From: an uncultured Pseudomonadota bacterium
Lineage (GTDB): Bacteria > Pseudomonadota > Alphaproteobacteria > RF32 > CAG-239
Length of the DNA: 42,111 nucleotides
Assembly: GCA_949290295.1 (NCBI GenBank)
Contig: CASERH010000004.1
Span: forward strand, 1 to 42,111
Direction of reading: 5' to 3'
Both the position numbers and the translations under genes were made by a program. This document shows, one piece after another, positions 166 through 1,902 of this stretch; position 1 is the first letter of the stretch; each line of letters starts with the position of its first letter. The notes under the pieces are model-generated. The model was given only the letters and a program-made list of their open reading frames with translations. It did no database searches and was not told the DNA's origin.

Positions 166-540
166 CTATCTCTCGTTTTCCGGCCGAAGTTTCACATTAA
201 CCATATCCGGCAACACCTTAATAAAGAACCCAACGGCATTTAGCTCTTTTTGAATATCTGCCGGATAAACCCTGTTTAACCTGATCATGATTTCTTCCTT
301 ATCATGATACCCCAAAGCCTGCGGAGTCACGGCATCAACCAAGTCGTCAAAATTATCAAAAATCGCGATGCCGACAACTTCACACTCAAGTTTTTCACCT
401 GTTGCCGCATTTTGCATTTCCAAGATATCATGCAACTTGACTTGTTGCGCTTTTTTATCAAACAAATGCACGCCGATTTTGCGACTTCCGCTTTTGATTT
501 TATTAAAAGAAAACTCATGAACGACCAAAGAATATTTCAT
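166..540 (-). CDS. ASCH-domain (PUA-like) protein
   Basis: Protein of 124 residues that fits the ASCH fold, a small PUA-like beta-barrel thought to bind RNA or modified nucleotides. Visible family marks are an early I-x-SG-x-(K/R) segment (KIKSGSRKIGVHLFD), a following DILEMQNAATGE strand, the hydrophobic VVGIAIFDNFDDLVDAV stretch, and a late YPADIQKELNAVGFFIKVL segment. I chose the ATG at 540 because GGGAGG lies 4 nt upstream; an in-frame TTG at 552 would overlap that ribosome binding site. The gene follows a ROK kinase gene on the same strand, but with its own -10 element and a perfect inverted repeat over the start region. The exact ligand cannot be told from sequence. Confidence in the domain is fair, in cellular function low. 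Confidence 0.75.
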   Translation of the reverse strand: MKYSLVVHEFSFNKIKSGSRKIGVHLFDKKAQQVKLHDILEMQNAATGEKLECEVVGIAIFDNFDDLVDAVTPQALGYHDKEEIMIRLNRVYPADIQKELNAVGFFIKVLPDMVNVKLRPENER

Positions 541-572
541 AATGCCTCCCAAAAAACTCGAGAGGCATTATA
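539..572 (-). promoter_or_regulatory. Perfect 10-bp inverted repeat over -10, ribosome binding site and start of the ASCH gene
   Basis: ATAATGCCTC (minus-strand reading, 571-562) and GAGGCATTAT (548-539) are perfect inverted copies separated by 13 nt. The left arm overlaps a perfect -10 hexamer TATAAT (572-567). The right arm contains the GAGG of the ribosome binding site and the first two bases of the ATG. As DNA this looks like an operator over the transcription start; as RNA from a more upstream start it would hide the ribosome binding site. There is no T-run after it, so it is not an ordinary terminator of the upstream ROK gene. Confidence 0.6.
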
Positions 573-591
573 ACAAAAATTTCTAAAAAGT

Positions 592-1461
592 CTACAATCT
601 CTCGATGAGTAAAAGAGCCGCGCCGAGCATTCCGGCATTATTTTCAAAATGAGCCTGCTTCAAAATAAACGGTTGTGTCAAAATATCTTCATTGGCTTGT
701 TTGTTAAGCTTTTCATACTCTACAAACTGAGCCATTGAGCCGGAGAGGACAATGACTTCAGGGTCAAAAATATTTGCCATCATCACTAAAGTATTTTCCA
801 AACATTCCTGCCAATGATCAAATGCCGCTCTAGCCTTTGGATTACCCTCTTTTAGGCCGCGGATAACATCATAGCTGGTGGCATCTGGCGCAAGATAAAT
901 CTTGGCATCGGTAGATAGAGCCGTACCCGAAACATAAGTCTCCAAACAATCCCAAAGTCCGCACCCGCATTGACGCTCATGCCCAAAGCTAAAACGTACA
1001 TGCATTTCACCGGCCGAGCCAGATTTGCCCTTGAGCAACTTGCCGTTAACAATAATACCAGACCCAACGCCTGTTCCCAAAGTTAAGATAACGGCATCTT
1101 TTGTGCCTTTAGCCGCACCGATTTTAAACTCCGCCCAAGCGGCGGCGTTAGCATCATTTTCAAGCAAAATAGGTTTTTCCGTCAAAGACAAAAAGTCAGT
1201 TTCATCATAGCCCTCAGGCAAATTTCCGACCCGTCCGATGATTTTATTATTTTCGTTATTAACCGGGCCTGCGGTTGCAATGGCAACACCGTCGATTTCA
1301 TCTTCAGAGCCTTTGATAACGGTTTTCAAAAGCTCATAAATACCGGAAGATGTTTTTGGTGTGGTAACCTTAATAACTTCGTTGGTAAAATTTCCTTTTT
1401 CATCAATAATGGCATAAGCGATTTTAGTGCCGCCGATATCAAAAGCTAAAACTTTTTTCAT
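592..1461 (-). CDS. ROK-family sugar kinase (glucokinase / N-acetylhexosamine kinase type)
   Basis: 289 residues, the normal size of a single-domain ROK kinase without a DNA-binding domain. The N terminus has the phosphate-binding motif FDIGGTKIAYAIID; a second motif is ENDANAAAWAEF, with the catalytic Asp, followed by TLGTGVGSGI. The ROK zinc signature is GHERQCGCGLWDCLE, with the Cys-x-Cys-x4-Cys spacing and the preceding GEMHVRF region. Such enzymes phosphorylate a hexose or N-acetylhexosamine in the cytoplasm using ATP; the substrate cannot be read from sequence. The ATG at 1461 has GAAGGAAGG upstream. It stands alone between the ASCH gene and a 430-bp non-coding stretch, and no transporter or catabolic partner is nearby. 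Confidence 0.88.
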   Translation of the reverse strand: MKKVLAFDIGGTKIAYAIIDEKGNFTNEVIKVTTPKTSSGIYELLKTVIKGSEDEIDGVAIATAGPVNNENNKIIGRVGNLPEGYDETDFLSLTEKPILLENDANAAAWAEFKIGAAKGTKDAVILTLGTGVGSGIIVNGKLLKGKSGSAGEMHVRFSFGHERQCGCGLWDCLETYVSGTALSTDAKIYLAPDATSYDVIRGLKEGNPKARAAFDHWQECLENTLVMMANIFDPEVIVLSGSMAQFVEYEKLNKQANEDILTQPFILKQAHFENNAGMLGAALLLIERL

Positions 1462-1573: not shown

Positions 1574-1638
1574 CTGAAACGACGCCCGCAACAAAAAACA
1601 CCCGTCGAAAGGACGGGTGTTTTTGAATTGGAGCGGGC
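1574..1638. repeat. Direct repeat, copy 1: decayed tRNA-Gly 3' end plus terminator
   Basis: This 65-bp segment matches 1839-1902 with three substitutions and one 1-nt indel. It contains the same hairpin (CACCCGTC...GACGGGTG) and, at its right end, TTGGAGCGGGC, which equals the CCA tail plus part of the acceptor strand of the tRNA-Gly gene read on the minus strand. No tRNA body follows. It is therefore a partial duplicate of the 3' end of the tRNA locus. Confidence 0.75.
1594..1624. terminator. Hairpin terminator in repeat copy 1
   Basis: AAACACCCGTC / GACGGGTGTTT stem with a GAAAG loop and A/T runs on both sides, so it could end transcription in either direction. It is near-identical to the terminator directly behind tRNA-Gly. 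Confidence 0.65.
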
Positions 1639-1647
1639 TGGAGGAAG

Positions 1648-1675
1648 AAAAACAACCGTTGCTCCGGTTGTTTTT
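1648..1675. terminator. Bidirectional hairpin terminator
   Basis: 11-bp stem AAAAACAACCG / CGGTTGTTTTT with loop TTGCTC and T-runs on both strands. It lies inside the segment between the two direct-repeat copies and has no gene immediately upstream on either strand. Confidence 0.6.
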
Positions 1676-1838
1676 CAACGACAGGCGACAGTTTGTTAGC
1701 GAGCCAAGCAAGCGTGAGCGCCTCTTGGCAAGCGTTACAAACCGAGTGACCGACGCGCACTTAGCGAACATTTGTGAGCTTAGTAAGCTAGAAAGGGATA
1801 AATCCCGTCCGTTGAAGACGAGCCTTTTAAGGCGAAGA

Positions 1839-1902
1839 CTGAAACGGCGCCCGCAACAAAAAACACCCGTCAAAAGGACGGGCGTTTTTGAATGGAGCGG
1901 GC
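1839..1902. repeat. Direct repeat, copy 2: tRNA-Gly 3' end plus its terminator
   Basis: The intact counterpart of the repeat at 1574-1638. Its right end is the true 3' end of tRNA-Gly. About 265 bp separate the starts of the two copies. Confidence 0.75.
1858..1889 (-). terminator. Terminator of tRNA-Gly
   Basis: Begins about 4 nt after the encoded CCA. The stem is GCCCGTC...GACGGGT with an A/T-rich base, followed by a T-run on the minus strand. Confidence 0.75.

Follow-up and report, generated by a model that had tools for sequence, protein, structure and literature searches.

A predicted RNA hairpin across the -10 element, ribosome binding site and start codon of an ASCH-fold gene in an uncultured alphaproteobacterium, possibly insulating it from upstream read-through

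What does a perfect inverted repeat do when it overlaps the -10 element, the Shine-Dalgarno (SD) sequence and the start codon of one gene? The question was raised by the gene for a 124-aa ASCH-fold protein on the minus strand (166-540) of the window, a 42,111-nt stretch of DNA from an uncultured alphaproteobacterium. An earlier note had placed the repeat at 539-572. The perfect 10-bp arms and the 13-nt spacer were found as described, but the last base of the repeat is 571; position 572 is part of the TATAAT only and lies outside. The upstream (5') arm, ATAATGCCTC (562-571, minus strand), overlaps the -10. The downstream (3') arm, GAGGCATTAT (539-548, minus strand), matches it perfectly, overlaps the SD (GAGG) and reaches two bases into the ATG (540-538, minus strand), so that the note was right about the overlaps on both sides. 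The full SD, read directly from the sequence, is GGGAGG (545-550, minus strand).

The 10-bp repeat by itself is ordinary, since chance alone predicts 1.1 perfect 10-bp repeats with spacers of 3-20 nt in 42 kb. The window contained seven places with such repeats; at the other six, the arms were flanked by A/T runs and resembled intrinsic terminators. The simulated rate was 25.75 such repeats per Mb, which by our own arithmetic, with start regions estimated by us at about 42 kb in a 1.46-Mb genome, gives about one on some gene start genome-wide by chance. The unusual features are the position of this repeat and a G-U extension of the stem that only the sense RNA can form.

In the sense RNA, the stem extends beyond the arms by U-A and U-G pairs on the outside and by U-G, C-G, G-U and A-U pairs on the inside. 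The predicted product is a 16-bp hairpin (537-573, minus strand) with a UUUUU loop. The predicted fold energy was -21.4 kcal/mol (z -6.7), as against -12.8 kcal/mol for the antisense RNA. Nearly all of the SD and AUG was predicted to be paired inside the hairpin in RNA reading through from upstream. A stem of this stability (-20.6 kcal/mol) makes an RNA thermometer unlikely.

No stem of at least 16 bp occurred in 4 Mb of simulated sequence, and 0.3% of simulated 10-bp cores had at least six extra pairable positions beside them; both tests were chosen after the hairpin had been seen and are thus suggestive rather than formal. Among sampled stretches of the genome totaling 281 kb, no second credible gene start carried a stem of this kind. 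The other matches at gene starts there were both judged spurious: one ORF (window 1616) lies within a terminator-like stem, and the other, at locus L061, begins with TTG. By fold energy the ASCH start ranked 7th among the 157 starts of ORFs; several higher-ranked ones belonged to spurious ORFs in terminators, so fold energy alone was not decisive.

No Rfam family matched the site of the repeat. A genome-wide search for further copies, allowing up to three mismatches at the same spacing, found none. This single-copy state rules out a dispersed element or a shared regulon site. A local copy, ATAATGCCT, at 135-127 and a similar sequence, GGCATTAT, at 634-650 were taken as chance.

The -10 (TATAAT, 567-572, minus strand) is of the extended type (TGtTATAAT). 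A -35-like TAGACT (589-594, minus strand) lies 16 nt before it and overlaps the TAG stop codon (592-594) of the upstream gene, which encodes a ROK-family kinase. The pair matched the consensus at 10 of 12 positions and was the best promoter-like site in positions 1-1600. Transcription from it would start 7-9 nt downstream of the -10, at 558-560 on the minus strand, which is inside the hairpin.

The same promoter was kept in three orthologous loci (L035/L007, L038/L010 and L040/L011), with TAGACA or TGGACA, the 16-nt spacing and TGCTATAAT. The distance from TGCTATAAT to the ATG was 23-25 nt in these loci, compared with 26 in the window. The repeat was absent from L035, L037, L038 and L040. This suggested that the promoter is probably older than the repeat and, as judged from these loci, that the ASCH family can do without the repeat.

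The ROK gene (592-1461, minus strand) ends 51 nt upstream of ASCH on the same strand, and the scan used detected no terminator in the gap. This context, absent from the earlier note, makes ROK the candidate source of read-through mRNA. The note had proposed that, if transcription began further upstream, the arms would form an mRNA hairpin hiding the ribosome binding site; this is the best-supported of its suggestions. The base of the hairpin lies 18 nt beyond the ROK stop codon, a distance at which a terminating ribosome would probably fail to open it.

We interpreted the repeat, with middling confidence, as an RNA element that insulates ASCH translation from ROK read-through mRNA. An mRNA initiated at ROK and running on into ASCH would fold the 16-bp hairpin, which would bury the SD and AUG and prevent translation of ASCH from that molecule. 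Polymerase engaged at the ASCH extended -10 would begin at about 558-560; with this -10 placed in the upstream arm, the gene's own transcript would start in the loop, lack that arm, be unable to form the hairpin and remain translatable. The hairpin could then form only on RNA coming from upstream, that is, from ROK. Pairing of the SD was predicted for the own-promoter transcript as well, but it was weaker, at -12.5 kcal/mol across 90 nt. The start site, the read-through and the translational effect are what we infer; the sequence analysis itself gave the repeat, the way it overlaps -10, SD and AUG, a predicted fold that is stronger on the sense strand, ROK upstream on the same strand with no terminator found, and a promoter shared with orthologues.

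The arrangement resembles one known from phage T4. The starts of T4 gene e and I-TevI are masked in the longer RNAs, and transcription from late promoters gives RNAs without the 5' strand; lysozyme synthesis from the structured transcripts is cut about 100-fold (PMC3014915, PMC2988022). Longer transcripts of T4 gene e (lysozyme), soc, 49 and I-TevI form a helix that sequesters SD/AUG, as is predicted for ASCH. Two further traits of the gene e and I-TevI type are a promoter within the DNA for the 5' strand and transcription that also arrives from upstream genes; at ASCH, a promoter-like -10 with a putative start lies in the upstream arm, and ROK lies 51 nt upstream with no terminator detected. 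The ASCH hairpin would work like those of gene e and I-TevI, an analogy that claims no relatedness. Unlike these, the ASCH case concerns a bacterial chromosome and a sigma-70-type extended -10 rather than a T4 late promoter, and the proposed role is insulation from a neighbour rather than phage timing. Another parallel is the way IS10/IS50 guard their transposase against outside transcription: read-through mRNA folds into a hairpin that masks the transposase start, and the own-promoter mRNA lacks this hairpin. The ASCH locus, on the other hand, has no transposase or terminal repeats, and its repeat is not found elsewhere in the genome. Nothing close was found in the literature on chromosomal promoter-in-hairpin cases.

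Among the orthologues fetched, three main arrangements were found upstream of ASCH. In the first (L007, L009, L010, L011, L024 and L025), the order is GroES-GroEL-TM2-tRNA-Gly-ASCH; all six loci fetched had a terminator-like site separating the tRNA from ASCH, and most also had their own promoter-like site. In the second (L006, L008, L012 and L015), no more than about 5 nt lie between the ROK stop codon and the start of ASCH, which has no good promoter. This near-abutment makes cotranscription of ROK and ASCH plausible in the genus. In the third (L014, L017-L020 and L022), ASCH follows a FliP-like gene, as read from its C-terminal sequence. The window clade has ROK upstream as in the second arrangement and a promoter as in the first; it lacks a terminator and has the hairpin instead.

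We suggest, more tentatively, that a promoter-in-hairpin switch replaces terminator-based insulation here, keeping the ORF silent on mRNA from its neighbour but active on mRNA from its own promoter, and that it was acquired in one small clade of uncultured Alphaproteobacteria with ASCH behind ROK. If so, the locus would offer a clean instance, on a chromosome, of a layout familiar mainly from phage T4. Promoter, hairpin arm and translation start would share one short sequence, and where the mRNA starts would decide whether it is translated. Operon prediction by gene order alone would then wrongly call ASCH co-expressed with ROK. Two loci are counter-examples: L016, behind ROK with a 96-nt gap, and L014, behind the FliP-like gene with a 104-nt gap and a promoter-like site, both had neither a hairpin nor a detected terminator. 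Across L032-L049, the upstream neighbour of ASCH varied (tRNA-Gly, ROK or the FliP-like gene), and tRNA-Ser was often close downstream.

The ASCH protein was encoded in 42 of 134 related genomes and, with the window genome included, in 24 of the 35 genomes of the genus; no ASCH match was found in the other 11. The exact arms were present in 4 of these 35, once each and always adjoining ASCH, and the four are near-identical species. They were 97-98% identical over ROK, and the intergenic stretch was identical except for one T inserted in the loop (L004/L033). At 2-3% divergence an unchanged stretch of 33 nt is close to expectation, so the lack of change is weak evidence. The invariant stretch also reached past the repeat on both sides. 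The arms were identical in all four species, with no compensatory changes, and no comparable repeat was found in the fetched orthologues at or below 70% protein identity. Conservation among the four species is too shallow to prove function.

The earlier note had proposed a check for the repeat beside ASCH homologues and had held that its absence there would refute its proposal; among the orthologues examined, the repeat was found in the four near-identical species only, which comes near that outcome. The inverted repeat is real, the feature is restricted to a lineage, and it possibly has a function.

In L009, a 7-bp inverted repeat (TAAAGAG/CTCTTTA, -27 to +1) ends at the ATG and may be chance. 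It was rejected as an equivalent: its place is similar, but its SD is in the loop, and repeats so short are common. In L034 (= L005), the 5' part of ASCH was almost identical to the window, and the differences clustered in the final third of the gene and in the adjoining downstream DNA, near tRNA-Ser. This looked like local recombination.

A rather unlikely alternative is that a chance palindrome was fixed in the ancestor of the four species and has little or no effect beyond somewhat lower read-through translation. The shallow conservation, the lack of the repeat in every more distant orthologue examined, and the chance frequencies given above (about one per 42 kb, and about one on some gene start per 1.46-Mb genome) are all consistent with this. 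It accounts less well for a 16-bp stem of a kind absent from the 4-Mb simulation, for an extension by G-U pairs in the sense strand only, and for the joint coverage of -10, SD and AUG.

The leading reading of the earlier note was that the repeat has the geometry of an autoregulatory operator. On such a reading, ASCH or another repressor would bind both arms and block the promoter. As in known palindromic autoregulatory operators, the palindrome spans the -10 and the inferred start region, and, according to structure entry titles, there is a solved structure of the human TRIP4 ASCH domain with double-stranded DNA. We nevertheless considered a DNA operator improbable and unsupported. The repeat was absent beside all orthologues examined outside the four near-identical species, including those that keep the same promoter; it is single copy in the genome and goes with no known regulator. 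Typical dimer operators are compact, whereas the arm centres here are 23 bp apart. The G-U pairs that extend the stem in RNA are meaningless in duplex DNA.

That the hairpin chiefly ends or stabilises the ROK mRNA, as a weak terminator or 3'-end barrier, was judged very improbable. The hairpin lies just past ROK, no other terminator was detected, and the scan flagged it as terminator-like; but the tail, AATATTCTTT, is not a T run directly after the stem, and on this reading only coincidence would place the hairpin over SD and AUG.

The ASCH protein itself was compared by structure and profile. Its AlphaFold model (pLDDT 75) matched PH0355 (Z 18.0, rmsd 1.5, 107 aligned), YqfB (Z 12.9, rmsd 2.4, 101 aligned) and ZmASCH (Z about 10), and the profile match to PH0355 had an E of 4e-10. 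Pfam (PF04266) gave no match for the window protein and matched 2 of 26 relatives (best E 0.019); the sequence is divergent, and the ASCH assignment thus rests on the fold. On this model the protein is of the ASCH/PUA-like fold even though Pfam misses it. PHROG 19935, a phage 'RNA-binding protein' family, matched all 26 aligned homologues.

The catalytic set of the ac4C amidohydrolase YqfB consists of Lys21, Thr24 and Arg26 (K-x-x-T-x-R) with Glu74 (PMC9599836). K-x-x-T-x-R is absent from the window protein, in which the region reads SRKIGVHLFDKK and no Thr precedes residue 47. In this part of the catalytic set the protein differs from the YqfB type.

Binding of the hairpin by the ASCH protein to repress its own translation was the least probable reading and found no support here: the protein has an ASCH fold, and the ASCH protein of Zymomonas is a nucleic-acid binder that cleaves single-stranded RNA (PMC5615036), but the predicted hairpin would hide the SD even without protein, it is absent beside other ASCH orthologues, and own-promoter mRNA is expected to lack the upstream arm.

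Elsewhere in the window (1574-1893), a 55-nt terminator-containing segment beside tRNA-Gly was repeated 265 nt away at 95% identity. The stretch between the two copies shares pieces with about a dozen further sites in the genome, several of them at contig ends. This suggested that the 1574-1893 dispersed repeat probably breaks the assembly.
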